Assembly (NCBI RefSeq): GCF_900113955.1
Contig: NZ_FORH01000002.1
Location: 434,001 to 498,000 of the forward strand
DNA: 64,000 nt
Origin: Celeribacter neptunius
Lineage (GTDB): Bacteria > Pseudomonadota > Alphaproteobacteria > Rhodobacterales > Rhodobacteraceae
Direction of reading: 5' to 3'
Positions 5,927 to 49,175 of the stretch are shown one piece after another (position 1 is the stretch's first letter; every line of letters starts with the position of its first letter). The position numbers were made by a program, and so were the translations under genes. The notes below the pieces were generated by a model. The model was not told the origin of the DNA and did not search any database. It saw only the letters and a program-made list of their open reading frames with translations.

Positions 5927-6023
5927 CGCCACCGCTCCCTCATTGTATTTGTGTCCTCGGGGTTTTATCCCGGTCCTGCGCCTAGGAACAGGCGAAAACC
6001 CGGACGGACAACAGGAGGCCGCG

Positions 6024-6776: not shown

Positions 6777-6922
6777 GACCCGGCTCCCCCACGATCGGCC
6801 TCCGTTCAGGTCGCGATCAGACAGCACCGTGCCGCACAACCAAAACGGGTCAGCCCGCTCCGCCGTGATTAGTTTTGTGGCAAAGCCACGCGGGTGAGGT
6901 GTGGGATACCCTACTTTTTTAC

Positions 6923-6946
6923 GGGGAAAATCCGACAGGTTTTCCC
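6923..6946 (+). promoter_or_regulatory. Hairpin in the leader of the LuxR-hydrolase gene
   Basis: ggggaaaa at 6923-6930 can pair with ttttccc at 6940-6946 across a 9-base loop. A second small hairpin (gtggc/gccac) lies about 40 bases upstream. Both fall in the 261-bp gap between cobS and the next gene. No T-tract follows, so a structured leader or an operator is as likely as a terminator. Confidence 0.3.
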
Positions 6947-7037
6947 ATGCGATCAAAAAATGCTTCCCTGAGGCGTTTTGTCGAGCGACCCTTTTGGCCA
7001 ACGCACCCTGACCAAAGCTGTTCTCTCGAGGCGCATT

Positions 7038-15865: not shown

Positions 15866-16409
15866 GTTTGATCCGACCCTTGAGCCGCCCGGCGATCTCC
15901 ACATCTTCCATCAGCGGCAGCTCGGAGAAACCGCCGATCTCGTCGTAAAGCTCGCGCGAGATCAGCAGGGCCTGATCGCCATAGGGAAGGCCAAACCATT
16001 TTGTCCGAAGATTGGCCCAGCCGGCGGTGACACGCGGCCCGAGTCCTTCTGCGTCGTGAAATGACAGCGAATAGACCATCGCCTTGTCATAGGCTTTCGC
16101 CAGATGCTGCACGGTTTCTTCCGCCCAGCCCTCGGGCAGCCAGGTGTCGGCATGGAGAAACATCAGCCAATCGCCCTCGGCCGCCTCGGCACCGCGTTTG
16201 AGCTGGCCGCCGCGGCCCGCCTCACCGATCACCAGTTCGGCACCGACGAAATCGGCCATCTTCTCGACCCCGTCGGAGGAGCCGCCATCGGAAAGGATCA
16301 GCTCGCGCACCAGCCCGGCGTCGAGCCCTTCCATCAGGGAAAGCAAGGTGTCGCGCAGCTTCGGCGTGACATTCAGGGTCGGGATGATGACGGAAATCGG
16401 CGCGCGCAT
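15723..16409 (-). CDS. Glycosyltransferase family 2, TIGR04283 type
   Basis: The 228-residue GT-A glycosyltransferase starts with the usual ISVIIPTLN. It carries ILSDGGSSDG (nucleotide-sugar Asp) and FLHADTWLP, the family's variant of the DxD metal site. The C-terminal pattern RYQTSGWWRQGARN...GADPIRLARRY is characteristic of the TIGR04283 rSAM/selenodomain-associated transferases. The substrate is unknown. The ATG at 16409 is preferred over one ten codons upstream, because homology starts at MRAPISVIIP. The last 143 bp lie inside the 3' end of the convergent exporter gene. Since the glycosyltransferase end is conserved in its family, the exporter tail is probably the newer part. Confidence 0.88.
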   Translation of the reverse strand: MRAPISVIIPTLNVTPKLRDTLLSLMEGLDAGLVRELILSDGGSSDGVEKMADFVGAELVIGEAGRGGQLKRGAEAAEGDWLMFLHADTWLPEGWAEETVQHLAKAYDKAMVYSLSFHDAEGLGPRVTAGWANLRTKWFGLPYGDQALLISRELYDEIGGFSELPLMEDVEIAGRLKGRIKLSPLRVRTDPSRYQTSGWWRQGARNLFRLLRYRLGADPIRLARRYRH

Positions 16410-16441
16410 AGGGGGTCCGGCAAGGTTGCAGCTTCTCAAGT

Positions 16442-16481
16442 CTTTCCCCCTTCCTATATGAAGGGGGCCAAAAGGGGAAAG
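16442..16481 (+). promoter_or_regulatory. Alternative hairpins just upstream of ygfZ
   Basis: ccccctt (16446-16452) pairs with aaggggg (16461-16467). Alternatively tctttcccc (16441-16449) pairs with ggggaaaga (16474-16482). The second form buries the purine-rich ribosome-binding region of the gene starting at 16488. The two structures exclude each other. Confidence 0.35.
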
Positions 16482-16487
16482 AGACCT

Positions 16488-17225
16488 ATGACCGAGACCG
16501 CACGCACTGTGATCGAAATATCAGGCGAAGACCGGATGCACTTCCTGCAAGGGCTGATCACCAATGATGTGAAGAGGCTCGAGACGGGGGCACTCTATGC
16601 CGCGCTGCTGACGCCGCAGGGCAAGTTCATCGTCGATTTCTTCCTGATCCCCGAGGGGGATGTGATCCTCATGGACGTGCCCGCCAGCGAGGCGGAGGCG
16701 CTCCTGAAACGCCTCACCATGTACAAGCTGCGCTCGAAAGTGACGCTGACACCGACGGAGCGACACGTGTCGCGCGGTCCGGGACCGGCGGCGCCCGAGG
16801 GCGCCTTTGCCGATCCGCGGGCGCCCAAGATGGGCTGGCGCGCCTATGACGGACGGCCTTCGGAAGAGGTCGACTGGGACGCGATCCGGGTCGCCGAATG
16901 CATTCCCGAATTCGGCATCGAACTGACCCCAGACACATTCATCCTCGAGGCCGGATTCCCCCGGCTCAATGGTGTGGATTTCAAGAAAGGCTGCTATGTC
17001 GGCCAGGAGGTCACCGCGCGGATGCATCACAAGACCGAGCTGCGCAAGGGGCTCAGAACCGTGTCGATCGAGGGCGCCGCCCCCGTGGGCACGGAGATCA
17101 AAACCGAGACCGACAAGACCGCCGGCACGCTGTTCACCCAATCGGGCGGCCAGGCCATCGCCTATCTGCGCTTTGATCGCGCCACCGGTCCGCTCAGCGC
17201 CGGGGCCGCGAAAATCACGGTTTGA
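16488..17225 (+). CDS. ygfZ: YgfZ/GcvT-domain folate-binding Fe-S cluster maintenance protein
   Basis: The 245-residue protein has the YgfZ signature KGCYVGQEVTARM near residues 165-177, with the conserved Cys and the folate-linked Arg region downstream. The N-terminal part (MHFLQGLITNDV) matches the same family. YgfZ/IBA57 proteins bind tetrahydrofolate and help assemble or repair certain 4Fe-4S enzymes in the cytosol. The start at 16488 is preferred because homology begins there; the frame is open far upstream, through the divergent glycosyltransferase gene. The ribosome site is the ggggaaagaga stretch, which can be closed by a hairpin. Confidence 0.9.
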   Translation: MTETARTVIEISGEDRMHFLQGLITNDVKRLETGALYAALLTPQGKFIVDFFLIPEGDVILMDVPASEAEALLKRLTMYKLRSKVTLTPTERHVSRGPGPAAPEGAFADPRAPKMGWRAYDGRPSEEVDWDAIRVAECIPEFGIELTPDTFILEAGFPRLNGVDFKKGCYVGQEVTARMHHKTELRKGLRTVSIEGAAPVGTEIKTETDKTAGTLFTQSGGQAIAYLRFDRATGPLSAGAAKITV

Positions 17226-17307
17226 AGCAACAGTCCCGCTCCTATCCCATCGAGATAGAGGTCGCCTTAACCCGCCCGAAACTCTTGTCTTTGCAAACTT
17301 CTTCTGT

Positions 17308-28140: not shown

Positions 28141-28214
28141 GGCGAGTTGGCGGAGTGGTGACGCAGCGGATTGCAAATCCGTGTACACCGGTTCGATTCC
28201 GGTACTCGCCTCCA
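28141..28214 (+). tRNA. tRNA-Cys (anticodon GCA)
   Basis: The acceptor stem ggcgagt pairs with actcgcc. The anticodon loop ttgcaaa presents GCA at 28173-28175, the T-arm ggttcgattcc is intact, and the CCA end is encoded at 28212-28214. All four arms fold. It stands alone between the sulfotransferase gene and the ABC transporter locus. Confidence 0.97.
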
Positions 28215-36762: not shown

Positions 36763-38088
36763 ATGGCTCCGAAGTTTTCCCCATTCAAAGACACGCTCTG
36801 GTATGCCACCGCGCCCGAAGCGCCGCAGACCCGGCCGCTTCTGGGCGAGGTCACGGCCGATGTCTGTATCGTCGGCGCCGGCTATTCCGGGCTGACCACG
36901 GCGCTCGAGCTGGCGCGTCAGGGCGTCTCGGTGGTGGTGCTGGAGCGCGAAGAGATCGGCTTTGGTGGCTCCGGCCGCAATGCCGGGCATTGCACGCCGA
37001 CCTTTACCCATTACAGCCTGCCCGAGCTCCACAAGGTGCTTGGTGCGCCCTGGGCCGAACGGCTGATCCATCGCCAGACCCGCGCCAATGACAAGGTGAG
37101 CGAGATGATCGCCCGCTATGGCATCGATTGCGAATGGGAACAGAATGGCTATGTCCAGGGCGCGCTCTTCCCATCGCATCTCAAGACGCTCGAGCGACAA
37201 GTCGAGAGCTACAACGCCGTGGGCGCCCGCACCCGGCTGCTTGACCGTGACGAAGTGCGCGAGGTCACCGGCTCGGCGCGCTTCTATGGCGGCTGGATGC
37301 ACGAGGAGGCCGGCGGGCTGAACGCCCTGGCCTATGCCCGTGGCCTCGGTCGCGCCGTCCTGTCCGAGGGCGGGCAGATCTACACCGGCTCCGGCGTGAC
37401 CGGCTGCGACCGCGAAGATCAGGCCTGGGTGGTCAAGACCCAGCGCGGATCGGTGCGCGCGGAAAAGGTGATCTACACCACCGGCGCCTATACCGTCGCG
37501 GGCTGGCCCAGGCTCGACCAGACCTTCCGTATCATGCGGGTGTTCGTCGCCGCGACCCAACCCCTGTCGCCTGCCTCGCAAGCCGTGGTCCTGCCCAAGC
37601 GCACGACGATTCAGGACGGGCGCGGCGACATCTATGTCTACAAATACAACCGTGAAAACCGCATCGTCGCCTCGATGTTCCCGATGGGCGCGCGCGGCCG
37701 CGATCCCGCCTATACCCGCAAGGTGCTCTCGGACCGGCTGAAATGGCTGCATCCCGATCTGCGCGAGGAGCTCAGATGGGAGTTCTTCTGGTATGGCGAG
37801 CTGGACATGCAGCGCCGCACCGTGCCGCGGCTTTACGGCCTCGCCCCCGGGGTGGTGGCGATGACCGGGCTGTCGGGGCGCGGCGTGCCCACCGGCTCGA
37901 TGATCGGCGGCATCCTGTCGGACTGGGCCATGGGTGTGCCGGAGGCCGATCTGGATCTCAGGCTCGAACCCTTGAGCCGGCAACCACACTACATGCGGAT
38001 CGCACCACAGGCCGCACTCCGGGGATACCGGCTCCGCGACGGGCTGCGCGCCCTGCGCCAGCGCGCGCCCCTGCCACCACACGCATAA
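36763..38088 (+). CDS. FAD-dependent oxidoreductase, PuuB-like
   Basis: The 441-residue DAO-family flavoprotein has the FAD-binding CIVGAGYSGLTTALELAR near residues 35-52. The GFGGSGRNAGHCTP block follows near residues 67-80, as in gamma-glutamylputrescine oxidase and related amine oxidases. Downstream motifs include the C-terminal GLSGRGVPTGSMIGG. The N-terminal SPFKDTLWYATAPEAP is also typical of this subgroup. It probably oxidises a secondary or primary amine on an amino-acid-like substrate. It differs clearly from the two paralogues around it, so the locus carries two types of FAD amine oxidase. A ggagacag ribosome site lies before the ATG. Confidence 0.88.
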   Translation: MAPKFSPFKDTLWYATAPEAPQTRPLLGEVTADVCIVGAGYSGLTTALELARQGVSVVVLEREEIGFGGSGRNAGHCTPTFTHYSLPELHKVLGAPWAERLIHRQTRANDKVSEMIARYGIDCEWEQNGYVQGALFPSHLKTLERQVESYNAVGARTRLLDRDEVREVTGSARFYGGWMHEEAGGLNALAYARGLGRAVLSEGGQIYTGSGVTGCDREDQAWVVKTQRGSVRAEKVIYTTGAYTVAGWPRLDQTFRIMRVFVAATQPLSPASQAVVLPKRTTIQDGRGDIYVYKYNRENRIVASMFPMGARGRDPAYTRKVLSDRLKWLHPDLREELRWEFFWYGELDMQRRTVPRLYGLAPGVVAMTGLSGRGVPTGSMIGGILSDWAMGVPEADLDLRLEPLSRQPHYMRIAPQAALRGYRLRDGLRALRQRAPLPPHA

Positions 38089-38133
38089 GCATTCAACGGG
38101 GCGCCAGAGACGCCCACATCTAGGAGAAACACC

Positions 38134-39486
38134 ATGCCGGGACCGCAACTTGATCCGGTCGAGAGCAACGCCACCCTGCCCGCCGAGGTCGATGTCGTCA
38201 TCATCGGCGGCGGCATCGCCGGGGTCTGTACCGCGCTTGAACTCGTGGAGCGCGGCAAGACCGTCGCCCTCTGCGAGAAAGGCGAAATCGGCGCCGAACA
38301 GTCGAGCCGCAACTGGGGCTGGGTGCGCCTGACCCATCGCGACCCGCGGGAAATGCCGCTGATGGTCGAATCCGTGCGTCTGTGGAAGGCGATGAACGAC
38401 CGCATCGGCGATGAGACCGGCTACCGGCAATGCGGGGTGACCTACACGGTCACCGACGACAAGGTTCTGGCCAGCGAAGGTGAGGCGGCCGAGGAGCTGC
38501 AGAAATATCAGATCCCGGCGCGTATTTTGAACGCGAACGAAGTGCGCGAGGCGTTTCCCGGATTTTCGCTCGACATCAAGGGCGCGCTCCACAACCCGCA
38601 TGACGGCCGCGCCGAACCGCAGAAGGCCGCCCCCGCGATCGCCCGTGCGGTGCAGGCGCGGGGCGGCTCCGTGCATCAATATTGCGCCGTGCGCACGCTC
38701 GAGACGGCGGACGGCAAGGTCACCGGCGCGGTCACCGAGAAAGGCCCGATCAAATGCTCCGCCGTGCTGGTCGCCGGCGGGGTCTGGTCGCGGCTGTTTT
38801 TGGGCAATCTCGGGATCGAACTGCCCCAGCTCAGGACCAAGGGCACGGTGATGCGCACCGAACCGGTGGCCGACGGCCAGGAACAGACGCTCAAATCGCC
38901 GGGCTTTGCCCTGCGCAAACGGCTCGATGGCGGCTATAACATCGCCTCGGCGGCGCCGAGCCGCTATCAGCTCACCCCGGACAGTTTCCGGCTGTTCCGT
39001 GCCTTCCTGCCGACCTTGAAAAACGAATGGCGCAACATCTCTCTGGGTCTGGGACCAGCGTTCTTCGACGCGCTGCGCACACCGCGCCGCTGGACCGCCA
39101 AGGATGTCACACCGTTCGAGAAAAGCCGCATCCTCGATCCCGAACCGGACAGGCCGAGGATCGACAAGGTGCTCGACCTGGTGAAACGCGATTACGCGCC
39201 CTTCAAGGGCGCCAAGGTGGCCCAGCGCTGGGCCGGCTATATCGATGTCATGCCGGACATCATTCCGGTGATTTCCGAGACCAAGGGGGTGAAAAACGGC
39301 ATCGACGGGTTGTTCGTTGCCACCGGGTTCTCCGGGCACGGGTTCGGGCTCGGCACCGGCGCGGGGCTTCTGGCCGCCGATCTGATCACCGGGCGCGCGC
39401 CTTGCGTCGATCCGACACCGTTCCGGCTGCATCGATTCTCCGATGGCAGCAAGATCACCCCGACCCTCGGCGTCACCCAGCGTTGA
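38134..39486 (+). CDS. FAD-dependent oxidoreductase (DAO family), paralogue B
   Basis: The 450-residue flavoprotein has the same order of motifs as the gene at 31635: VVIIGGGIAGVCTALELVE, EQSSRNWGWVRLTHRDPRE, DGRAEPQKAAPAIA, QRWAGYIDVMPD and ATGFSGHGFGLGTG. The two therefore arose by duplication and have since diverged. The starting MPGP is shared too. It is cytosolic. Possible roles are oxidation of the second of two related substrates or of the opposite enantiomer. A taggaga box precedes the ATG, and the GhrA-like gene follows 22 bp later. Confidence 0.88.
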   Translation: MPGPQLDPVESNATLPAEVDVVIIGGGIAGVCTALELVERGKTVALCEKGEIGAEQSSRNWGWVRLTHRDPREMPLMVESVRLWKAMNDRIGDETGYRQCGVTYTVTDDKVLASEGEAAEELQKYQIPARILNANEVREAFPGFSLDIKGALHNPHDGRAEPQKAAPAIARAVQARGGSVHQYCAVRTLETADGKVTGAVTEKGPIKCSAVLVAGGVWSRLFLGNLGIELPQLRTKGTVMRTEPVADGQEQTLKSPGFALRKRLDGGYNIASAAPSRYQLTPDSFRLFRAFLPTLKNEWRNISLGLGPAFFDALRTPRRWTAKDVTPFEKSRILDPEPDRPRIDKVLDLVKRDYAPFKGAKVAQRWAGYIDVMPDIIPVISETKGVKNGIDGLFVATGFSGHGFGLGTGAGLLAADLITGRAPCVDPTPFRLHRFSDGSKITPTLGVTQR

Positions 39487-39508
39487 GACACGGCACAGAG
39501 AGGCCCCC

Positions 39509-40429
39509 ATGACGCTCCTGATGAATGTCACCGATCCCGAGCGGCTCGCAGCCTTTGACGAGATCCTCGGAGTGGCGCAGCCGGGGCTCCGGATCGTCAA
39601 GCCGGGAGAGGCTTATGATCCCGAAGAGATCCGCTATCTCTTCACCTGGCAGCCGCTCGAGGATTGGGTCGCGCTGCCCAATCTCGAAGTGGTGTTCTCG
39701 GTGAGTGCGGGGGTCGATCAGTTCACCGCCCTGCCCGCGCATATCGCGCTGGTGAAAATGGTCGATCCGCTGAACACCGAACGGGTGGCGGATTATGTGC
39801 TCGCCGCCTGTCTCGTCGGTTTGCGAGACTTTCCGCGCTATGGCGAGCAACAGCGCCAACGACTTTGGCAGCCCGCGCCGGGGCGCACCATCGCGGAGAC
39901 CCGCGTCACGGTATTGGGGCTGGGCCAGACCGGGCGGGCCGCCGCCGCGAAACTCGTCGCAGCCGGGTTCGAGACCTCCGGCTGGGCGCGCAGCGCGCAT
40001 GAGATCGAGGGCATGACCTGCCGCAGCGGTGAAGCGGGGCTGACGGCGCTCCTGGCAGAGGCCGATATCGTCGTCTGCCTGCTGCCCCTGACCGAGGCGA
40101 CCCGCGGCATTCTCTCGAAACCCTTGTTCGCACGAATGAAGCCCGGCGCCAGCCTCGTGCATGCCGGGCGCGGGCCGCAGTGCAATTTCACCGATCTCGC
40201 CGAAGCGCTCGAAACCGGTCAGCTCGGCAATGCGGTGATCGATGTGTTCGAGACCGAACCCCTGCCCAAGGCTGATCCTTGTTGGGACCTGCCCAATTGC
40301 CTGATCACCCCGCATGTGGCCGGACGCACCGGCGCCGAGACCGCGGCACGCAATGTCGCGCAGAACCTCGCGCGGCTGACCGCCGGGCAAGAGCTGCTCT
40401 GGCGCGTCGATCGGCAGAAAGGCTATTGA
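39509..40429 (+). CDS. 2-hydroxyacid dehydrogenase, GhrA-like (glyoxylate/hydroxypyruvate reductase)
   Basis: The 306-residue D-isomer hydroxyacid dehydrogenase has a short N-terminal catalytic part. The NAD(P)-binding domain follows, with VTVLGLGQTGRAAAAKL near residues 131-147. The substrate-binding region VSAGVDQF, the catalytic Glu region IDVFETEPLP and the His in LITPHVAGRTG are all present. In GhrA the enzyme reduces glyoxylate and hydroxypyruvate with NADPH. Placed last in an amine-oxidation operon, it could reduce the 2-oxo acid released by the FAD enzymes; this is inferred. It is convergent with the deoR gene, about 50 bp away. Confidence 0.88.
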   Translation: MTLLMNVTDPERLAAFDEILGVAQPGLRIVKPGEAYDPEEIRYLFTWQPLEDWVALPNLEVVFSVSAGVDQFTALPAHIALVKMVDPLNTERVADYVLAACLVGLRDFPRYGEQQRQRLWQPAPGRTIAETRVTVLGLGQTGRAAAAKLVAAGFETSGWARSAHEIEGMTCRSGEAGLTALLAEADIVVCLLPLTEATRGILSKPLFARMKPGASLVHAGRGPQCNFTDLAEALETGQLGNAVIDVFETEPLPKADPCWDLPNCLITPHVAGRTGAETAARNVAQNLARLTAGQELLWRVDRQKGY

Positions 40430-40480: not shown

Positions 40481-41248
40481 CTAGACCCGGATGAGCTTGC
40501 AGCCCTCCTGCGCGCATCTCCGGGCCAGATCCTCGGACAGGTCCGCCCCGGTGACGATCACCTCATACTCCCAGAGCTGCCCGTGCTGACAGGCCAGATC
40601 GAGCCCGAGCTTTTCGGTATCCGCGACCAGGATCCGCGTTCTGGCACAGCCGGCGATGGCCTTGCGCGCCGCGATCTCGTCGGAATTGTAATCGAGCACC
40701 GCGCCGGATGCAGAGAGCCCGCCACAGCTGAACACCGCGTAATCGACGCGATATCTCGAAAAGAATTCGAAAGAGGCCATGCCGATCAGATCCAGATCGC
40801 GCATCCGGACGCTGCCGCCGGCCATCTCGACCACGGCGCCGGGAGCATGTTGCAGCGCACAGACCGCATGGATGCTGTTGCTCGCGACGAACAGGTTTTC
40901 GCGGGACGCCAGGAGACGGGCGCAATGTTCGACCGTGGTGCCGGTGCCCAGCGCCACACGCGCCCCATCGGGGATCAGGTTTTTCACCGCCAGAGCGATC
41001 CGCTGCTTTTCCTGTCTCGAGATGCTCTCCCGCGGCAGATAGCCGATATTCTCGCTCTGCTGCCGCAACCGCGCCGCGCCATTGCGGCGCTGCACCAGCC
41101 CGGCCTCATCGAGATCGCGCAAATCCGTCCGGATGGTCTGAACCGACACGGACAGGCGCTCGGACAGCTCTGCCGCGGAAAGGTCGCCGCTTTCCGACAG
41201 GAGCGAAATGATGCGGTCGCGCCGCTCTGCCAGATCCAACCGCCTCAT
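40481..41248 (-). CDS. DeoR-family transcriptional regulator
   Basis: The 255-residue protein has an N-terminal helix-turn-helix, MRRLDLAERRDRI...LSAAELSERLSVSVQTIR, near residues 1-45. The DeoR C-terminal sensor domain follows, with LGTGTTVEHCARLL, SNSIHAV and VADTEKLG. DeoR-family sensor domains usually bind phosphorylated sugars or related phosphates and then release the operator. The ATG at 41248 is chosen over one 12 codons upstream, because the family starts there. It is divergent from the ABC importer operon across 167 bp containing a TTTCG-type palindrome, and is therefore its probable repressor. Confidence 0.9.
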   Translation of the reverse strand: MRRLDLAERRDRIISLLSESGDLSAAELSERLSVSVQTIRTDLRDLDEAGLVQRRNGAARLRQQSENIGYLPRESISRQEKQRIALAVKNLIPDGARVALGTGTTVEHCARLLASRENLFVASNSIHAVCALQHAPGAVVEMAGGSVRMRDLDLIGMASFEFFSRYRVDYAVFSCGGLSASGAVLDYNSDEIAARKAIAGCARTRILVADTEKLGLDLACQHGQLWEYEVIVTGADLSEDLARRCAQEGCKLIRV

Positions 41249-41381
41249 GACTTTCCTTCGAAAACAACCACAGGTTTCATCCAAGGTTAGGCCGGATCGT
41301 TTTTTGGCGCAATATCATTAAAAAAGTTACAGTTTTGTCACAAAACCTTTGCGTGAACCGAGAATAAATCCCCCGTGAAAA

Positions 41382-41395
41382 CTTTCGAACGAAAG
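41382..41395 (+). promoter_or_regulatory. TTTCG..CGAAA palindrome, candidate DeoR operator
   Basis: ctttcgaacgaaag is a perfect 14-bp palindrome 20 bp before the start of the binding-protein gene. Many DeoR-type repressors, such as GlpR, recognise TTCG/CGAA half-sites. A second palindrome gttttg-tca-caaaac lies at 41332-41346 in the same spacer. Confidence 0.55.
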
Positions 41396-41415
41396 CAAAT
41401 TCCCAGGAGTTCCCG

Positions 41416-42384
41416 ATGAAGACCTTCCTCACCTCGACCGCCTTTGCGCTTATGGCCTCGACCGCCATGGCCGATACGATCACGCTTTACACCTCTCAGC
41501 CCAACGCCGATGCGCAGAAGACCGTGGATGCGTTCATGGCCGCCAACCCGGGCACCGAGGTGGATTGGGTGCGCGATGGCACGACCAAGCTGATGGCCCG
41601 CCTGCGCGCCGAAATCGAAGCCGGCAACCCGCAGCCCGACGTGCTACTCATCGCCGACACCGTCACGCTCGAAGGCATGGCACAGGATGGCCTCCTGAGC
41701 GCCTATCAGTCGCCGGAAGCCGCGCATTACAACGCCGCGCTCTACTCGGCCGAAGGCTATTACTATTCCACCAAGCTGATCACCACCGGCATCGTCTACA
41801 ACACCGGCATTGAAACCGCCCCGACCTCCTGGACCGATCTCTCGGAGGATGCGCTCAAGGGTCAGGTGGCCATGCCCTCGCCGCTCTATTCCGGCGCGGC
41901 GCTGATCCATCTCGCCACGCTGACCGGCGACAAGGATCTTGGCTGGGATTATTACGGCAAGCTGGCCGGCAACGAAGCCCGCGCCCAGGGCGGCAATGGC
42001 GGCACGTTCAAGGCCGTCGCCTCCGGCGAGAAACCCTATGGCATGGTCGTCGACTACCTCGCCATCCGCAACAAGGCCGACGGTTCGCCGGTCGATTTCG
42101 TCTTCCCCGAGGAAGGTGTCTCCTATGTGACCGAACCGGTGGCGATCCTGTCCACGGCGAAAAATATCGAAGGCGCGCAGAAGTTCGTCGACTTCGTGCT
42201 GAGCCAGCAGGGCCAGGATCTGGTGCTCGACATGGGCTATATCCCGGCGCGCGACGGCATGGGCGTGCCCGCCGGTTTCCCGGCACGTGAAGACATCAAG
42301 CTGATGGCTTTCGACCCGGCCGAGGCGCTGAAAAACGCCGAGGCCAACAAAGAGAAATTCGCAGAGCTCTTCGGCGCCGAATAA
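41416..42384 (+). CDS. ABC substrate-binding protein, FbpA/AfuA-like
   Basis: The 322-residue periplasmic protein has a signal peptide (TAFALMASTAMA, cleaved before DTITLY). Its fold is that of the Fe(III)-, phosphonate- and sugar-phosphate-binding cluster, with ITLYTSQPN, DWVRDGTTKLMARL and the late TEPVAILSTAKN. Ferric-binding FbpA proteins carry a tandem Tyr pair (NNYYW) at the position that here reads VVDYLAIRNK, so the second Tyr is missing. That argues against iron. AfuA, once called an iron protein, binds hexose phosphates. With a DeoR regulator and three phosphatase-type genes in the operon, an organophosphate ligand is the best inference. An aggag box precedes the ATG. Confidence 0.85.
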   Translation: MKTFLTSTAFALMASTAMADTITLYTSQPNADAQKTVDAFMAANPGTEVDWVRDGTTKLMARLRAEIEAGNPQPDVLLIADTVTLEGMAQDGLLSAYQSPEAAHYNAALYSAEGYYYSTKLITTGIVYNTGIETAPTSWTDLSEDALKGQVAMPSPLYSGAALIHLATLTGDKDLGWDYYGKLAGNEARAQGGNGGTFKAVASGEKPYGMVVDYLAIRNKADGSPVDFVFPEEGVSYVTEPVAILSTAKNIEGAQKFVDFVLSQQGQDLVLDMGYIPARDGMGVPAGFPAREDIKLMAFDPAEALKNAEANKEKFAELFGAE

Positions 42385-44087
42385 TGCACCAAGCCTTGCG
42401 AAACGGGGGCAGCCGGTCCGAGACCCGGCTGCTCTCTGCCATTCTCGTCATCGCGATCGGGCTGACGCTCGCCCCCGTGCTGCGCCTTTTCGTCGAAGGG
42501 GTGACGCAGGACGGCGCACCGAGCCTGGCACTCTTCGACACGGTGCTGGCGCAGCCCGCCACCCTGAGCGCGCTCAAACATTCGCTGATCACCGCCGGGG
42601 CCGGCACATTGGTGTCGCTCCTTCTTGGCGCGGGCTTCGCCTTTCTCGTGGCCCTCACCGATCTGCGCGCCAAACCGGCGCTGGTGTTCTGCCTGATGAT
42701 CCCGATGATGATCCCGCCGCAGATCACCGCGCTGTCCTGGACCCAGATCATGGGGCCGTCTTCGGTGCTGTTGAAAACCCTCGGGATCGCGCCGCCGCTG
42801 GGCGCGCCACAGCCGCTCTATTCGGCCGAGGGCATCATCCTGCTGCTCGGGCTTCAGCATATGTCGATCAACTTCCTGACCCTGCGGGCCGGACTGCGGG
42901 CGATCCCGCAGGAGGTGGTCGAGGCGGCGCGGATCAGCGGCGCCCGCGGCCTGCGCACCTGGTGGCAGGTGGTGATGCCGCTGACCCTGCCGAGCCTCGC
43001 CGCCGGCACCGCCATCACCTTTGTCACCGCCTTGGGCAATTTCGGCATTCCCGCCATGCTCGGCATTCCGGCGGGCTATGTGACCCTGCCGACGCTGGTC
43101 TATCAGAAACTCGCCGGCATGGGCACGACCGTGCTGGCCGAAGTGTCGGTCCTGGCCATGCTGATCGGCGCGGTCGCGGTGATCGGCATCCTGATCCAAC
43201 GCTTCTTTCAATCCCGGCAGAGAGTCTATCTCGTCGGCTCCACCTCGCGCCCGCTGGCGATCCCACTGGGCGCGGCGCGTCTGCCGGTGGAAATCTTGCT
43301 CTGGGCCGTGGTCTTTGCCATCCTCGTGCTGCCGCTGTTCGGGCTGATCGCCACCTCGCTGGTGCCCGCTTACGGCGTACCGCTGCGGCTCGACACGGTG
43401 ACGCTGGCCGCCTGGCAGGAGGTGCTGTTCCGACAGCCCGCCACCACCCGCGCTTTCGTCAATTCCTTTGGCCTCGCGAGCGGTGCCGCGCTCACCCTGA
43501 TGCTGATCTGCCTGCCGCTGGCCTGGCTGATGGAGCGGCATCCGACCCGGCTGTCGCGCCTGTTCGACAGCCTGCTCGACCTGCCCTATGCGCTCCCGGG
43601 CGTCGTGCTGTCGATCGCGATGATCCTCCTGCTGATCAAGCTGCCCTTCACCGAGGCGACGCTCTACGGCACGATCTGGATCATCTTCCTGGCCTATCTG
43701 GCACGGTTCTTCGCGGTGATGTTCCGCCCCGTGCAAGCCAGCCTGAAACAGCTCGACCCGGCGATGGCCGAGGCGGCGCAATCGGTCGGGGCCGGCCTCA
43801 CCCAGCGTCTGCGCGATGTGATCCTGCCGCTTTCGGCCCCTGCCGCCGCCGCCGGGGCCATCCTCGTCTTTCTCACCGCCTTCAACGAGCTGACGGTCTC
43901 GGCGCTTCTGTGGTCCTCGGGCACCGAAACCTTGGGCGTGGTGATCTTCAACCTCGACGACAGCGGCGAAACCGCCATGGCCAGCGCGCTTGCCATGACC
44001 ATCGTGCTCGTCGTCATGGCGCTGATGGGGCTGATCCAGATCTTCGCCCGTCGCTTCCCGAAAGGAGTCGTTCCATGGCAGACATAA
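42384..44087 (+). CDS. ABC importer permease, FbpB/AfuB-like (two fused permease units)
   Basis: The 567-residue polytopic protein contains two type I importer permease units in one chain, the usual form in FbpB/AfuB and 2-aminoethylphosphonate systems. The first EAA loop appears as VVEAARISGARGLRTWWQVVMP near residues 173-194. The second is MAEAAQSVGAGLTQRLRDVILP near residues 461-482. Its ATG shares one base with the stop of the binding-protein gene, and its end overlaps the ATPase gene by 13 bp. All three are therefore translationally coupled. Confidence 0.9.
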   Translation: MHQALRNGGSRSETRLLSAILVIAIGLTLAPVLRLFVEGVTQDGAPSLALFDTVLAQPATLSALKHSLITAGAGTLVSLLLGAGFAFLVALTDLRAKPALVFCLMIPMMIPPQITALSWTQIMGPSSVLLKTLGIAPPLGAPQPLYSAEGIILLLGLQHMSINFLTLRAGLRAIPQEVVEAARISGARGLRTWWQVVMPLTLPSLAAGTAITFVTALGNFGIPAMLGIPAGYVTLPTLVYQKLAGMGTTVLAEVSVLAMLIGAVAVIGILIQRFFQSRQRVYLVGSTSRPLAIPLGAARLPVEILLWAVVFAILVLPLFGLIATSLVPAYGVPLRLDTVTLAAWQEVLFRQPATTRAFVNSFGLASGAALTLMLICLPLAWLMERHPTRLSRLFDSLLDLPYALPGVVLSIAMILLLIKLPFTEATLYGTIWIIFLAYLARFFAVMFRPVQASLKQLDPAMAEAAQSVGAGLTQRLRDVILPLSAPAAAAGAILVFLTAFNELTVSALLWSSGTETLGVVIFNLDDSGETAMASALAMTIVLVVMALMGLIQIFARRFPKGVVPWQT

Positions 44088-45124
44088 ACCTGTCCTCTGT
44101 CGGCAAGACATTCGCAGGCACGCCCGCGCTCGCGGACATCACCACCCGGTTCGAGGATGGCGAATTCATCGCCCTGCTCGGCCCCTCGGGCTGTGGCAAG
44201 ACCACGCTTCTGCGGCTTCTGGCCGGGTTCGACATGCCGAGCACGGGCCAGATCCGCATCGGCGCGCGCGACATGGCCAATGCCCGGACCGGCAAGATGG
44301 TGCCGCCGGAAGAGCGCAACATCGGCTTCGTGTTCCAGAGCTACGCGCTCTGGCCGCATATGACGGTGCGCCGCAACGTGTCGTACCCGCTGGAAATCCG
44401 CAAGCTGACCAAGCCCGAGATCGCCGCCGGAACCGAGGCCGCGCTCGCCGCCACCGGTCTTGCCCCCTATGCCGATCGCATGCCCTCGGATCTCTCGGGC
44501 GGACAGAGACAGCGCGTGGCGCTGGCCCGTTGCCTGGTGTCCCACCCCGATGCGGTCTTGCTCGATGAGCCGCTGGCCAATCTCGACGTCGCCCTCAGAG
44601 CCTCGATGCAGGAGGTGTTCACCGATTTTCACAAGCGCACCGGCGCCACCATGGTCTATGTCACCCATGATCAGGCCGAGGCGATGGCCATGGCCGACCG
44701 GATCGCGGTGATGGATCAGGGCCGCATCCAGCAATTCGACACGCCGCAGACCCTCTACGAACGCCCGCACAACCGTTTCGTGGCGGAATTCGTCGGGCGC
44801 GGCACCGTGGTGCCGGTTCAGGGGATCGAGCGGGACGAAAGCGCGCTTCACGCCCATGTTCTGGGGGCACGGATTGCGGTGCAAAGCGGCAACAATGCGC
44901 CTTCGGTCAGCCATGTCTGCCTGCGCCCCGAGAACCTCTCGATCACCGAGACCGGGGATCTGCGCGCCAAGGTCACGCGGGTCACCTATCTCGGCGGGCG
45001 GTATCTGTTGGAGACCGTGGCCGAATGCGGCACGCGGCTCCTGGCGGAGACGCGCGCGAAATTCGACATCGGCGCCCAGCTCGGCCTCACCATCACCACA
45101 CCCTGGGCCTTTCGCGAGGATTGA
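44075..45124 (+). CDS. ABC importer ATPase, FbpC/AfuC-like
   Basis: The 349-residue ATPase has Walker A GPSGCGKTT, the Q-loop in FVFQSYALWPHMTV, signature [14 protein letters not shown], Walker B VLLDEPLANLD and the switch His in YVTHDQAEAM. A C-terminal TOBE-type domain (about residues 245-349) follows, as in CUT1/FbpC proteins. The ATG at 44075 has an aaaggag box. It lies inside the permease's 3' end. The MBL-fold hydrolase gene begins 2 bp after its stop. Confidence 0.92.
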   Translation: MADINLSSVGKTFAGTPALADITTRFEDGEFIALLGPSGCGKTTLLRLLAGFDMPSTGQIRIGARDMANARTGKMVPPEERNIGFVFQSYALWPHMTVRRNVSYPLEIRKLTKPEIAAGTEAALAATGLAPYADRMPSDLSGGQRQRVALARCLVSHPDAVLLDEPLANLDVALRASMQEVFTDFHKRTGATMVYVTHDQAEAMAMADRIAVMDQGRIQQFDTPQTLYERPHNRFVAEFVGRGTVVPVQGIERDESALHAHVLGARIAVQSGNNAPSVSHVCLRPENLSITETGDLRAKVTRVTYLGGRYLLETVAECGTRLLAETRAKFDIGAQLGLTITTPWAFRED

Positions 45125-45126
45125 AA

Positions 45127-46194
45127 ATGGAAAGCGTAAGACTTCTCTCCGGCATCGGCGACAAGGGCCCGGCCTGCATGCGGCTCGATCTCGGTGACCG
45201 GATCTGGCTATTGGATTGCGGCTTCGGCCCCGAGGCCAATGCGCATTTCAACCCCGACTGGCTCAAGGGCGCCGAGGCGGTGTTCATCACCCATGACCAT
45301 ATCGACCATATCGGCGGCGCCTCGCACGCGGTGGAGGCCGGTCTGCCGATCTATGCCACGGCGCAGACCGCCAAGGCGCTGCCCCCCGCCGCGCAAGTGC
45401 ACCTCCTGCCCGAACAGGGGGAGAGTGTGATCGATGGTGTGCGCCTGACCACCGGGCGAAATGGCCATGCCATGGGCGGGGTCTGGATGCATTTCGATCT
45501 CGGCGAGGGGCTGTTCTACTCGGGCGACTGGTCCGAGGAATCGGATTGGTTCCCCTTCGACATGCCTCCGCCCGCCGCCACCGCCATTCTCGATTGTTCC
45601 TACCATCTCGACGACGTGCCGCAGTCGGAGCGTTTCGCGGCCTTGGACCGCCTGCTCGACGGGCTGCACGGCCAGGTGCTCCTGCCGGTGCCGCCCTCGG
45701 GGCGCGCCGGCGAAATGGCGCTGCACCTGATCCGGCGCTACGGCGTGGAGAGCGTCATGCTCGATCCCGAATGCCGCGCCGCCCTGAGCGCGGCGCTCGC
45801 CAGCCCGGGGCTCAGCCCCGATGTGCAGGAAATTACCCCCTTGCTGGCCCGCGGCCCGATGGATCAGGCGCGGTTCCTGATCTGCGACACGCCCAATGCC
45901 GATGGCGGCGCCGCCTGGGGCTATGTCCGGGCCTGGAACGAAAGCGGCCGGCTGGGGCGCGACGCGCATGTCGTGTTCACCGGCCATATGACGGCGCATG
46001 CGCGCGGCATCTGCTCTGTTCCCGGCGGCTATTTCCAACGCTGGAACGTGCACCCGCCGCTGCGCGATCAGGTCAGGATGCTCGAACGTCTCGGGGCCAA
46101 ACGCTTTGCCCCTGCCTTCTGCGCCCAGCCGGAGGATTACCTGATCGAAGATCTCGGCGTGGAGATTTTCCTGCATGATCCGGTGCGGCTATGA
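45127..46194 (+). CDS. Metallo-beta-lactamase-fold hydrolase
   Basis: The 355-residue protein has the MBL metal-binding motif ITHDHIDHIGGASHA near residues 55-69, and further ligands are possible in GRNGHAMGG and YSGDWSEESDW. Later, TGHMTAHARG may provide a last His. This matches RNase J/CPSF-like or PhnP-like phosphodiesterases more than beta-lactamases, but the C-terminal part is not one I recognise. No signal peptide is present. It lies 2 bp after the transporter ATPase and overlaps the histidine phosphatase start by 4 bp, so it should act on the imported compound. A phosphodiester substrate is inferred. Confidence 0.82.
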   Translation: MESVRLLSGIGDKGPACMRLDLGDRIWLLDCGFGPEANAHFNPDWLKGAEAVFITHDHIDHIGGASHAVEAGLPIYATAQTAKALPPAAQVHLLPEQGESVIDGVRLTTGRNGHAMGGVWMHFDLGEGLFYSGDWSEESDWFPFDMPPPAATAILDCSYHLDDVPQSERFAALDRLLDGLHGQVLLPVPPSGRAGEMALHLIRRYGVESVMLDPECRAALSAALASPGLSPDVQEITPLLARGPMDQARFLICDTPNADGGAAWGYVRAWNESGRLGRDAHVVFTGHMTAHARGICSVPGGYFQRWNVHPPLRDQVRMLERLGAKRFAPAFCAQPEDYLIEDLGVEIFLHDPVRL

Positions 46195-46730
46195 CCGCGA
46201 TCCCGGCCAAGAGCTTCTGCCTGATCCGCCACGGCGAGACCACGGCCAATGCCCGTGGCATCATCGCCGGGCACACGGATGTGGCGCTCACCGGGCTGGG
46301 CCGACAGCAAGCCCGCGCCCTGCACCAGCGGGTTTGGCCGGAGCGGATCGCGCTTCATTCCAGCCCGTTGTCGCGGGCGCGTGAAACATGCGGACTGGCC
46401 TTCCCGGGTCACGCCTTCACGCTCCATGACGGGTTGCGCGAACGGCACTGGGGCGTGTTTGAAACCCGCCCGCTGAGCGAACAGCCGAGGCGGGAAGACA
46501 CGCCCGAAGCCGGCGAAAGCTGGCCCGACATGCTGGCCCGCGTGTCCCGAACGATTGCCGAAATCTGCGCGACCGGTGATGGCGCCCTGCCGGTTCTGAT
46601 CTGCCATTCCGGGGTGATCCGCGCCGCCCGCGTGCTCTGGACCAGTGGCGACGTCGGCAACCGCCCGGCCAATGCCCGACCGATCCTGTTCAAAAAAACC
46701 GGACAGGGCTTCAAGGAGAAACAACTATGA
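46191..46730 (+). CDS. Histidine phosphatase (phosphoglycerate-mutase-like)
   Basis: The 179-residue protein shows the branch 1 histidine phosphatase signature LIRHGETTANARG at residues 11-23, with the catalytic His. SSPLSRARETC supplies the second Arg, GLRERHWGVFE the acid, and LICHSGVIRAAR the second His. The family removes phosphate from sugars, nucleotides or alpha-ribazole phosphate. A role in cobalamin synthesis (CobC) is not excluded by sequence, but the operon context, coupled 4 bp on each side to the MBL and HAD genes, favours a substrate of the transporter. Confidence 0.85.
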   Translation: MTAIPAKSFCLIRHGETTANARGIIAGHTDVALTGLGRQQARALHQRVWPERIALHSSPLSRARETCGLAFPGHAFTLHDGLRERHWGVFETRPLSEQPRREDTPEAGESWPDMLARVSRTIAEICATGDGALPVLICHSGVIRAARVLWTSGDVGNRPANARPILFKKTGQGFKEKQL

Positions 46731-47200
46731 CCCATCCCAGCCCCGCTCTCCCGAGACCCTGTGTGGTCTTCGACGTCGATGGCACTCTGGCAGAGTTCGA
46801 CGCCGACCGCCTCGGCCATCTCGTGCATGGGATCGAAAAGCAATGGGACGCCTTTCATCTCGCCATGGCCGATGCGCCGCTGATCGCGCCGATCGCCCGG
46901 CTGATGCGGCGCCTGAAGGACAGTGGCGAGACCATCGTGATCTGTTCCGGGCGTCCGCGCGGTTGGGCCGAACATACGATTGCCTGGCTCGAGAAACACG
47001 ATCTGCCCTTTGACGGCATCTATCTGCGCCCCGAGGATCAGGACGAGGCCAGCGACCCGGATGTCAAGCGCCGTGCTCTGGCGGAGATGAAAGCCGACGG
47101 GCTCACCCCCTGGCTGATCATCGATGACCGCAGCTCCGTCGTCGACGCCTGGCGCGCCGAAGGGCTGGTCTGCCTGCAATGTGCGCCGGGAGATTTTTAA
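46727..47200 (+). CDS. HAD phosphatase, PNKP-like
   Basis: The 157-residue HAD-superfamily protein has motif I VVFDVDGTLAEFD near residues 13-25, with nucleophile and acid Asp. Motif II is VICSGRPRGWAEHT, and the late motif WLIIDDRSSVVDAW has paired Asp. Length and motifs resemble the 3'-phosphatase domain of polynucleotide kinase-phosphatases and phage-type phosphatases. It is the last gene of the importer operon and overlaps the histidine phosphatase by 4 bp. Three different hydrolases after one importer suggest stepwise removal of phosphate groups. Confidence 0.82.
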   Translation: MTHPSPALPRPCVVFDVDGTLAEFDADRLGHLVHGIEKQWDAFHLAMADAPLIAPIARLMRRLKDSGETIVICSGRPRGWAEHTIAWLEKHDLPFDGIYLRPEDQDEASDPDVKRRALAEMKADGLTPWLIIDDRSSVVDAWRAEGLVCLQCAPGDF

Positions 47201-47310: not shown

Positions 47311-48741
47311 TTGGAACAAACCCCTCAGACCCTCGTCGTCGATCTGGACGGTACGCTCCTGAACTCCGATATGCTCTATGAGACCTTCTGGTCGAGCCTT
47401 GCCCATGACTGGAAGACCCCGTTTCGCGCCGCCGCCGCGCTGAGCCATGGCAAGGCCGCACTCAAACGGCTGCTGGCGGAACGCTCGTCCGTCGATGTCA
47501 CCACCCTGCCCTATAACGAGGCGGTGATCGCCAGGCTGACAGACTGGCGCGCCGCCGGTGGACGTACCGCGCTGGTGACCGCCACGGATCAGAGCCTCGC
47601 CGATGCGATTGCCACCCATCTCGGCCTTTTCGACGATGTGATCGGCTCGGACGGGCAATCGAACCTGAAAGGCGCCCACAAGGCCGAGATGCTCGTGGCG
47701 CGCTATGGCGGGGACAAGGGCGGGTTCACCTATGTCGGGGATCATGCGGCGGATCTGGCAGTCTGGGCGGTGGCCGACGGCGCGATCACCGTGAATGCCA
47801 AACCGGCCCTGCGCGCCCGGGTTACCTGCAAGGGCGAGATCGAACATCTCGGGACCAGCAAACGCGACCCTCAGCCCTATTTCAAGGCGATCCGACCGCA
47901 TCAATGGCTCAAGAACCTGCTGATCTTCCTGCCGATGCTGACGGCGCATGAGCTGAGCCTGCCGGCGTTTTTCCTGTCACTGATCTCTTTCGTCGCCTTC
48001 AGCCTGATCGCCTCGTCGGTCTATGTGCTCAATGATCTGCTCGATCTGAAGGGGGACCGGGCGCATCCGCGCAAACGGCGTCGTCCGTTTGCCGCCGGCA
48101 CGATCCCGATTGCGCGCGGCACGGTGATGGCCATCGCCCTGCTCTGTGCCGGGCTGATCCCGGCAGTGCTGCTGGGCGGGCTGTTCCTGCAGGTGCTGAT
48201 TGCCTATTACATCCTCACCACCGCCTATTCGCTCTATCTCAAGCGCCAGCTGGTGATGGACATCTTTGCGCTGGCTGCACTGTACACCATCCGCATTTTG
48301 GCCGGCGCGGCCGGCACCGGCATTCCGATCTCGGTCTGGCTCCTGGCCTTTTCGATCTTCTTCTTCTTCTCGCTGGCGGCGGTGAAACGCCAGGCCGAGC
48401 TGGTCGACAGTCTCAACTCCGGCAAGCTCAAGGCCCATGGTCGCGGCTATCATGTCAATGATGTGCCGATAGTGGCGATGATGGCGCTGTCCTCGGGCTA
48501 TGTCTCGGTTCTGGTGATGGCGCTCTATCTGAAATCGCCGGAAATCGCCGTGCTCTATTCCGCGCCCGGGTATCTCTGGGGGGCCTGCATGGTGGTGCTG
48601 TTCTGGCTGTCGCGCATAGTGATGGTCACACATCGCGGCCAGATGAACGACGATCCGGTGCTCTATGCCGCCAAGGACCGCGTCAGCCTGATCTGCTTTG
48701 CCCTGATCCTGGCGCTTGGCGTGGCGGGCGCCACCCTATGA
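47311..48741 (+). CDS. HAD-UbiA fusion, polyprenyl-phosphate-linked glycosyl/prenyl transferase
   Basis: The 476-residue protein starts with a HAD domain (residues 1-180; motif I VVDLDGTLLNSD, late motif YVGDHAADLAVW). The remainder is a UbiA-family membrane domain: IRPHQWLKNLLIFLPML, the Mg-binding NDLLDLKGDR near residues 245-254, and about eight membrane segments. Related proteins move phosphoribose onto decaprenyl phosphate (DprE pathway), with the HAD domain perhaps removing the 5-phosphate afterwards. The start appears to be TTG at 47311, since no ATG or GTG fits the beginning of the HAD domain. It overlaps gtrA by 4 bp. The FAD oxidase and reductase that usually complete the epimerisation are not here. 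Confidence 0.82.
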   Translation: MEQTPQTLVVDLDGTLLNSDMLYETFWSSLAHDWKTPFRAAAALSHGKAALKRLLAERSSVDVTTLPYNEAVIARLTDWRAAGGRTALVTATDQSLADAIATHLGLFDDVIGSDGQSNLKGAHKAEMLVARYGGDKGGFTYVGDHAADLAVWAVADGAITVNAKPALRARVTCKGEIEHLGTSKRDPQPYFKAIRPHQWLKNLLIFLPMLTAHELSLPAFFLSLISFVAFSLIASSVYVLNDLLDLKGDRAHPRKRRRPFAAGTIPIARGTVMAIALLCAGLIPAVLLGGLFLQVLIAYYILTTAYSLYLKRQLVMDIFALAALYTIRILAGAAGTGIPISVWLLAFSIFFFFSLAAVKRQAELVDSLNSGKLKAHGRGYHVNDVPIVAMMALSSGYVSVLVMALYLKSPEIAVLYSAPGYLWGACMVVLFWLSRIVMVTHRGQMNDDPVLYAAKDRVSLICFALILALGVAGATL

Positions 48742-49175
48742 GCGCGCTCGCTCAGGGGCACCGCCGCCTCACCACGACGCAATTGGTGCTGCGTTACGGC
48801 GGTTTCGCGGTGCTGGCGACACTTGCCAATCTCGGCACCCAGCGGCTGGTGCTGGCCATCTGGCCGGAGGCGACAGGTCTTCTGGCGGCGCTGTTTTTCG
48901 GCACCGGTGTCGGGCTGGTGGTGAAATACATTCTCGACAAGCGCTGGATCTTTTTCGACATGGAGAGGGGCGCCCGGGCGCATGGCAAGAAATTCAGCCT
49001 CTACACGGCGATGGGGCTCGTCACCACGGCGATTTTCTGGGGCATGGAAACCGCGAGCTGGCTGATCTGGCGAACCGATCTGGCGCGCGAGGCCGGCGCC
49101 ATATTGGGGCTTGCGATCGGCTATGTGGTGAAGTTTCACCTCGACCGCCGCTTCGTGTTTCAAAACCCAAGCTGA
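48738..49175 (+). CDS. GtrA-family membrane protein
   Basis: The 145-residue protein has four hydrophobic segments and the GtrA pattern, including LVLRYGGFAVLATLANLG near the start. The C-terminal VVKFHLDRRFVF and the central VVKYILDKRWIF are the duplicated F/W-rich motif of the family. GtrA proteins help move lipid-linked sugars across the inner membrane or anchor related enzymes. Its 4-bp overlap with the HAD-UbiA gene suggests that it handles the same polyprenyl-linked sugar. Confidence 0.88.
   Translation: MSALAQGHRRLTTTQLVLRYGGFAVLATLANLGTQRLVLAIWPEATGLLAALFFGTGVGLVVKYILDKRWIFFDMERGARAHGKKFSLYTAMGLVTTAIFWGMETASWLIWRTDLAREAGAILGLAIGYVVKFHLDRRFVFQNPS

Follow-up and report, generated by a model that had tools for sequence, protein, structure and literature searches.

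Three described kinds of ABC importer offer the closest comparisons for the locus analyzed here, a seven-gene unit in a 64-kb stretch of DNA (the window; positions 434,001 to 498,000 of contig NZ_FORH01000002.1) from the 4.4-Mb genome of Celeribacter neptunius. AfuABC imports hexose and heptose phosphates (PMC4546632), and P5PAB, which was assayed with the ATPase AfuC added, imports pyridoxal-5'-phosphate (PMC8427247). AfuA and P5PA are both reported to bind phosphates with one ring (PMC4546632, PMC8427247). PhnS2T2U2 and PhnSTUV are importers of 2-aminoethylphosphonate, and they supply the best NCBIfam models for the window's binding protein and permease, all far under their curated cut-offs. 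The window has the same branch of binding protein, a permease, and an ATPase in common with AfuABC, as well as most of the phosphate side of the binding pocket. It differs in that the H205/D206/E229 triad of AfuA is not in the window protein and in that hydrolases and a DeoR regulator are linked to the importer, neither of which is mentioned for AfuABC in the portions of its report available to us (PMC4546632). P5PAB belongs to the same branch; its phosphate residues T37, S147, and G148 (PMC8427247) have matches in the window protein, and its ring residues do not. The window thus holds an importer of the AfuABC branch joined to a hydrolase set, and the cargo is most likely an organophosphate. 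From comparison of sequences, the operon is probably a module for the uptake and hydrolysis of a small organophosphate. The original prediction of organophosphate import with intracellular phosphate removal is supported by an importer-hydrolase core found with four unrelated phosphatase superfamilies, by the phosphate pocket, and by neighboring sodium/phosphate (Na/Pi) cotransporter genes. That prediction also knew of no described system with this gene set, and we found no description of it in the open PubMed Central literature.

All seven genes are intact in the window, in the order and on the strands first described, as judged from open reading frames, Pfam, and NCBIfam. A DeoR/GlpR-type regulator gene (40481..41284, minus strand) is divergent from six plus-strand genes. 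These code for a periplasmic binding protein of the AfuA/P5PA branch of "iron" binding proteins (41416..42384), a fused (double) ABC permease with two BPD_transp_1 stretches (42384..44087), an ABC ATPase with a TOBE domain (ABC_tran plus TOBE_2; 44075..45124), a compact metallo-beta-lactamase (MBL)-fold hydrolase of the beta-CASP (CPSF-73-like) kind (45127..46194), a cobC-like histidine phosphatase of branch 1 (46191..46730), and a PNKP-like HAD phosphatase (46727..47200). The MBL frame contains an in-frame ATG further upstream; relatives start at the residue equivalent to 45127. Junctions from the binding protein to the HAD gene are -1, -13, +2, -4, and -4 bp. The claim that the genes are coupled by gaps or overlaps of no more than 4 bp consequently holds for four junctions and fails for permease and ATPase, which overlap by 13 bp.

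A scan with the MBL protein, taking one genome per species, yielded 31 loci, and the full seven-gene order, which the original prediction had suggested seeking in other genomes, was present in 29 of them. Binding protein, permease, ATPase, MBL enzyme, and histidine phosphatase were found in all 31, DeoR in 30 (divergent in each), and the PNKP-like HAD in 29; locus L012 lacks DeoR and the PNKP-like gene, and L014 lacks the latter. Identity to the window proteins ranges from 82 to 90% for the binding protein, 80 to 91% for the permease, 65 to 87% for the ATPase, 74 to 92% for the MBL enzyme, 53 to 74% for the histidine phosphatase, 65 to 90% for the PNKP-like HAD, and 61 to 82% for DeoR. Celeribacter is nearest among named relatives at this locus, with MBL identity of 91 to 92%. 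The 1-bp overlap of binding protein and permease is kept in all 31 loci and the 13-bp overlap of permease and ATPase in 29 (the other two values are probably partial-match distances), and 4-bp overlaps join MBL and histidine phosphatase genes in 28 of 31 and the two phosphatase genes in 23 of 29. The flanks vary. The oxidase and 2-hydroxyacid dehydrogenase genes upstream of the window's unit and the HAD-UbiA and GtrA-like genes downstream of it are not beside the unit elsewhere, except for a weak oxidase match (26%) in L008. All seven genes were also present in each of seven more distant loci (L063 to L067, L089, and L094, the last two from other families), and in Phaeobacter inhibens 2.10 the unit lies on plasmid pPGA2_239. 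These results demonstrate that the seven genes are a real, single conserved unit, beyond chance; we refer to loci of this type as group A.

Relatives outside group A keep the importer and the MBL enzyme and vary in what follows them. Our whole-genome searches scored the best few candidates per genome, so that misses are possible. At an E value of 1e-3, MBL matches occurred in 163 of 394 genomes of the family and were mostly short and generic. Above 49 bits there were 24 relatives, 13 with at least 61% identity and 11 with 29 to 40%, and all 24 adjoin ABC genes of this kind. In the class-wide set, the MBL profile at 1e-20 matched 10 of 385 genomes, including the window's genome and one known relative. 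Six further matches were strong, five with binding protein and permease genes adjoining the MBL gene and one cut by a contig end, and two weak ones (79 and 77 bits) had no such transporter beside them. Binding protein, permease, ATPase, and MBL enzyme form the common core. Its order is ATPase-MBL-histidine phosphatase-binding protein-permease in group B1 (six of six, L069 to L074) and ATPase-binding protein-permease-MBL in group B2 (L068 and L092). No phosphatase was recognized in L068, which has a glucokinase gene upstream. In L092 the core is followed by a dual-specificity-type phosphatase with the motif HCRGGRSR, its Pfam scores of 26.9 and 25.4 bits lying under the cut-offs of 27 and 33.5. 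Group B3 (L090 and L091) has MBL-binding protein-permease, and neither a phosphatase nor a matching ATPase was found alongside; a fusion of the MBL gene in these loci (frames of 705 to 718 codons) was rejected, the N-terminal part being unlike real protein by eye. Group C has binding protein-permease-ATPase-MBL-SurE (four of four, L075 to L078), with a divergent SorC-type regulator in L075, L076, and L077.

The same interchange is seen on plasmids. The plasmid sample comprised 70 records with an MBL match at 1e-12 (27 of them from P. inhibens) plus 11 found through a group C-type MBL protein; 20 stretches in 19 records were read, and three unannotated stretches were searched by sequence. The unit or its relatives are plasmid borne in marine Rhodobacterales, Halomonas, and Enterobacter. 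The phosphatase slot holds a histidine phosphatase in Enterobacter hormaechei, a dual-specificity phosphatase in Pannonibacter, a PNKP-like HAD alone in Halomonas (L166), and SurE in Phyllobacterium, one Aminobacter, and four Nitratireductor plasmids. A "protein phosphatase" is annotated in Salipiger, with HCRGGRSR, and in Paracoccus methylovorus, without it; the HCRGGRSR type occurs in L092, L162, and L171. Three Paracoccaceae plasmid records have the B1 gene order. The E. hormaechei unit (L161) lies on a conjugative plasmid, behind an IS5-like transposase gene. Five of the six SurE-type plasmid loci read, all but that of Aminobacter, also have an Na/Pi cotransporter gene no more than about 6.5 kb from SurE. 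In Phyllobacterium this gene follows SurE immediately, with the same orientation, and the four Nitratireductor copies are on the opposite strand; the Nitratireductor loci are related, which leaves few independent cases. The refilling of one slot by unrelated phosphomonoesterases (histidine phosphatase, PNKP-like HAD, SurE, and dual-specificity) is the strongest sign that the unit serves to remove phosphate from the imported compound.

The binding protein has a signal peptide, by eye, and its nearest solved structures in the PDB are AfuA (4r72), 8x1a, and P5PA (6wce), in agreement with the earlier description of the importer as AfuABC-like. For each of the 18 AfuA contact residues with a place in the alignment, the letter agrees with that given in the available parts of PMC4546632 and PMC8427247, which confirms the numbering; Gln269 falls outside the alignment. 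On the phosphate side, AfuA G36, S37, T60, S148, and G149 are kept as G55, T56, T82, S159, and G160, and G38, T150, and G185 are replaced by T57, A161, and N194. The phosphate residues of AfuA are reported to include S37, S148, and G149 (PMC8427247). The P5PA phosphate site T37, S147, and G148 likewise matches T56, S159, and G160. On the ring side, AfuA H205, D206, E229, and Y103 correspond to Y214, L215, V238, and L121, and P5PA Y103 and H203, which are not kept, to K120 and Y214. With the phosphate side largely kept and the ring side altered, the protein should hold phosphate, and should not hold hexose phosphates or pyridoxal-5'-phosphate in the known way.

Two rival cargoes have to be considered. 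One possibility is a hexose-phosphate importer like AfuABC to which extra enzymes have been added. AfuA is among the nearest solved relatives, L068 has its upstream glucokinase gene, and both B2 proteins carry an Asp that aligns with AfuA D206. However, H205, D206, and E229, whose mutation is reported to abolish glucose 6-phosphate binding by AfuA (PMC4546632), are the very residues replaced in the window, and among 19 loci searched, four of them in group A, a glucokinase like that of L068 was present in L068 alone. We regard this explanation as quite unlikely. An importer of aminoethylphosphonate or another phosphonate, similar to PhnSTUV or PhnS2T2U2, would fit the best NCBIfam matches, PhnS2 (TIGR03261) for the binding protein and PhnU2 for the permease, and two Nitratireductor plasmids carry phnCDE-type phosphonate transporter genes about 5 to 9 kb away from the module. 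The scores of 132.4 bits against a cut-off of 392.75 and 177 bits against 593 nevertheless fall far short, and no phosphonate catabolic gene was noticed in the annotated group A locus or the other annotated stretches, although no dedicated search was made. Phosphatases of these families are not known to cleave C-P bonds, and a phosphonate cargo appears very unlikely. The ATPase is PotA/PhnT2-like in NCBIfam, also under the cut-offs; a polyamine reading was set low on the basis of the NCBIfam family scores.

The three enzymes retain intact catalytic motifs. In the MBL enzyme, H56, H58, D60, H61, H114, D134, D156, H287, and H309 are invariant among 15 diverse relatives, and the family profile matches CPSF-73 over residues 12 to 348, nearly the full length, with an E value of 3e-29. 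Beta-CASP MBL enzymes, a group known as phosphodiester cutters, have the signature HxHxDH, later His and Asp metal ligands, and C-terminal His motifs. The window enzyme has this signature, with D156, H287, and H309 presumably in the places of motifs A, B, and C, and its invariant motifs together with the profile match identify it as a compact beta-CASP-type enzyme, the predicted first cutter. The motifs are common to the beta-CASP nucleases CPSF-73, TTHA0252, and RNase J, but the window enzyme has only about 355 amino acids and is linked to a transporter. The histidine phosphatase scores 108 bits with His_Phos_1 (cut-off 21.7), with RHG, ER-WG, and HSG motifs conserved in 32 sequences, and the HAD protein scores 80 bits with HAD_PNKP (cut-off 27.6), with FDVDGT, CSGRP, VKR, and DDR motifs conserved in 30; both are predicted phosphomonoesterases. 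None of the three enzymes has a signal peptide by eye, and they are therefore taken to be cytoplasmic.

The kinship of these enzymes also raises the possibility that nucleotides or short oligonucleotides are scavenged for phosphate or bases. The MBL enzyme, nearest to CPSF-73 and archaeal CPSF RNases, would then be a nuclease or cyclic-nucleotide phosphodiesterase, and the HAD (nearest solved relatives Pnkp and T4 Pnkp, through their phosphatase domains), SurE (a 5'/3'-nucleotidase family), and histidine phosphatase would be nucleotidases. However, two of the nearest solved binding proteins, AfuA and P5PA, hold phosphates with one ring, and no gene for nucleoside or base catabolism was recognized beside the module among annotated or scanned genes, most flanking genes being unannotated. 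The SurE-type relatives are linked instead to genes for DXR-II and E1/E2 proteins, described below. Nucleotide scavenging thus has a modest chance of being correct, well below that of a module for another small organophosphate.

The region between the divergent genes suggests how the operon may be controlled. The regulator has DeoRC (114 bits) and HTH_DeoR (47 bits) matches in Pfam, and its best NCBIfam match is PRK10906 (DeoR/GlpR), with 144 bits against a cut-off of 331. Its likeliest start is the ATG at 41248, though the open frame reaches 41284. A palindrome, CTTTCG-AA-CGAAAG, lies at 41382..41395, 34 bp ahead of the binding-protein start. The 12-base core TTTCGNNCGAAA is found at this place in 30 of the 31 loci and the full 14-mer in 28, with the consensus CTTTCG-NN-CGAAAG and the 14-mer starting 33 to 47 bp ahead of the binding-protein start codon. 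Apart from the promoter sites, these loci, 595,033 bases in total, contain just four further copies of the core. The only locus without it, L012, is also the one without DeoR. A conserved ATAAGG-like stretch lies upstream in the promoter alignment, so that the palindrome would sit near the start of transcription. The palindrome is the predicted DeoR operator, at which DeoR would act as a repressor of the operon. No Pho box was recognized by eye in the promoter alignment.

From these features we infer a class of ligand, an order of cuts, a cytoplasmic site for the enzymes, an inducer, and a fate for the product. The substrate would carry at least one bond that an ordinary phosphatase cannot cut, such as that of a diester, a cyclic phosphate, or a diphosphate. 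The binding protein would hold its phosphate and deliver the intact compound for import by the fused permease and the ATPase. The compact beta-CASP-type enzyme would make the first cut in the cytoplasm, and the histidine phosphatase and PNKP-like HAD would then take off the remaining phosphates, giving a sugar or polyol and inorganic phosphate. Repression of the operon by DeoR, acting at the CTTTCG-NN-CGAAAG site, would last until a sugar phosphate or polyol phosphate builds up.

Several observations weigh against organophosphate uptake and hydrolysis as the function of the unit. A further set of importers, group D, was found in 30 of 394 genomes through binding proteins with 54 to 63% identity to that of the window (one further, broken copy uncounted), and tblastn found no relative of the MBL enzyme, histidine phosphatase, PNKP-like protein, or SurE in the 15 group D stretches read; no hydrolases were found at L159, which lies inside group A. 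The phosphate ligand T150 of AfuA is an alanine (A161) in the window. The predicted structure of the binding protein, made with 32 close sequences, has a mean predicted local distance difference test score of 36 and was not used; claims about the pocket rest on alignment to AfuA and P5PA because this model was too poor. No phosphatase was shown in the Azospirillum thermophilum and A. brasilense plasmid stretches, the ABC ATPase gene next to a Rhizobium MBL relative is of another kind, and a Falsirhodobacter relative adjoins no such transporter. Trees conflict on group B2, whose binding proteins group with those of group A and whose MBL proteins group with those of B1, which suggests that parts may have been exchanged. 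Metal-related genes also lie near some relatives: a Zur-like gene after the importer of L159, FecR/TonB siderophore genes at least 1.6 kb beyond the Pannonibacter unit, an Nramp gene ahead of the A. thermophilum unit, and, close to the isolated MBL gene of Falsirhodobacter, a metal ABC system.

The metal genes, together with the NCBI label of "iron ABC transporter permease" for the permease of the annotated group A locus, would favor a system that imports ferric iron or another metal and adjoins the three hydrolases by chance. Ferric FbpA has a tandem Tyr at its metal site. As the original prediction noted, this pair is absent from the window protein, in which the site reads VVDYLAIRNK (residues 211 to 220), with D-Y/F-L in its place; residue 214 is Phe in 14 of 17 group A sequences, and the place of the pair was set by alignment to AfuA, not FbpA. 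The pocket residues set the binding protein apart both from AfuA and from ferric proteins with the Tyr pair. The hydrolase linkage is kept in 29 of 31 loci and is rebuilt elsewhere with unrelated phosphatases, and the divergent regulators belong to the DeoR, SorC, or LacI types, which are families of sugar sensors. Metal import with chance neighbors is the least probable of the explanations considered. Binding proteins annotated as iron-importer parts may carry organophosphates instead, as AfuA did, and the module gives its own hint of such a cargo, since unrelated phosphatases replace one another in its hydrolase set.

In the binding-protein tree, group D nests between group C and groups B2 plus A, so that group D may have lost its hydrolases, although the root of the tree is one very distant outgroup. 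The ATPase gene of these hydrolase-free importers (L144 to L158) mostly faces the permease gene from the opposite side, and one group D locus has an HD-domain gene behind the ATPase gene. At L159, the Zur/Fur-like gene (assigned by eye) occupies positions 5205 to 5591 of the locus. One phosphatase or none was recognized in all 15 group D loci read and in L068, L090, L091, L159, L165, and L172, so that a fixed series of three steps does not hold throughout.

The SurE-type relatives offer a lead to the ligand. A gene set for DXR-II, E1alpha, E1beta, and E2, in which the E1/E2 genes are acetoin-dehydrogenase-like, lies within about 8 kb of the module in three of the four group C genomes and on another contig in the fourth. 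DXR-II with at least 60% identity was found in 23 of 394 genomes, including all four of group C; treating the genomes as independent, although they are not, gives P = 9e-6 for this. Residues were checked in the L075 enzyme alone, which has Gly121, Thr229, His250, Arg320, and Val351, positions named in the available text of PMC3847144 for distinguishing DXR-II (DRL) from look-alikes or for its function. DXR-II gene sets of the kind described there are linked to SurE-type relatives but not to the window's group, with none in 13 genomes, a result that chance would also give (P = 0.45). On plasmids, DXR-II matches at 1e-100 occurred in 7 of the 11 records found with the C-type MBL protein versus 38 of 72,556 overall, six of the seven being sister Aminobacter plasmids; no match was found on three of the four Nitratireductor plasmids or on the Phyllobacterium plasmid. 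The Aminobacter set and C module lie about 20 kb apart, with phosphotransferase system (PTS) and other genes between. Elsewhere the DXR-II set accompanies a sugar ABC importer with PfkB or a sugar kinase (L139 and L179) or a glucitol-type PTS (L177 and L178). Group D, considered as further support for the link, was rejected because DXR-II in 3 of its 30 genomes versus 23 of 394 is no enrichment.

The DXR-II set recurs with different importers (L139, L177, L178, L179, L075, L078, and L141), a pattern resembling a pathway for the breakdown of methylerythritol or its phosphates, and a polyol phosphate could be the common product of these routes. The linkage also suggests that methylerythritol phosphate (MEP) chemistry is used catabolically, a subject on which no paper was found by title or abstract in the literature searched. 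A pair of proteins, of about 220 to 280 and 200 to 390 amino acids, also recurs beside DXR-II clusters and C modules (L075, positions 5550 to 7557; L139, positions 16000 to 17291), with no Pfam match in the members scanned and no NCBIfam match in the two scanned.

The DXR-II linkage of the SurE type and a near-identical pocket make 2-C-methyl-D-erythritol 2,4-cyclodiphosphate (MEcDP) a bold candidate for the ligand. This phosphate ester of methylerythritol is a stable intermediate of the isoprenoid pathway. According to the available text of a 2024 review, MEcDP exits chloroplasts and some bacterial cells under stress and resists alkaline phosphatase, and how it enters cells is an open question (PMC11192765). 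This resistance means that a ring-opening enzyme would be needed, and a phosphodiesterase-type MBL enzyme could be one. The window module would import MEcDP, the MBL enzyme would open the ring, and the phosphatases would strip the phosphates; as a specific proposal this is speculative and rather unlikely to be correct. The enzymes of group A would remove both phosphates. In the SurE-type relatives, MEP might be converted to 1-deoxyxylulose 5-phosphate by DXR-II run backwards, and the acetoin-dehydrogenase-like complex might split this product to acetyl-CoA and glyceraldehyde 3-phosphate, as inferred from the chemistry. If MEcDP is the ligand, the module would bear on how MEcDP enters cells and would show feeding on a stress metabolite.

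The pocket likeness can be stated in numbers. At 20 positions chosen from the AfuA and P5PA pockets, the group A consensus equals that of group C at 18 and that of group D at 19, whereas over residues 22 to 300 the window protein is 52% identical to group C and 61% to group D. Among 5,000 random sets of 20 positions, the observed pocket identity was reached by 3 for C, 1 for D, 2 for B1/B3, and 131 for B2, compared with 2,590 for the outgroup, which shows no excess. This suggests that groups A and C may share a ligand, with the reservations that pocket residues are often conserved whatever the protein family and that some of the 20 positions belong to the phosphate shell. The B2 ring side is altered (A214 and D215, the latter like AfuA D206), and one of the two B2 members has the glucokinase gene. 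A search of the window genome with a DXR-II protein at 1e-60 gave no match, which weighs against MEcDP and indicates that group A is not tied to DXR-II. A PF21135 search of that genome gave none either, nor did it in control genomes; DXR-I is present.

Further genes flank the unit in the window. Just upstream on the plus strand (36763-40429) are two FAD-dependent oxidoreductase-like genes, the second of which was scanned and matched DAO, and a GhrA-like 2-hydroxyacid dehydrogenase gene. Downstream (47311-49175), a gene for a HAD-UbiA fusion (NCBIfam PRK08238, above cut-off) overlaps by 4 bp a gene for a small protein that is GtrA-like by eye. The sole tRNA gene found in the window by ARAGORN is tRNA-Cys (gca) at 28141-28214.

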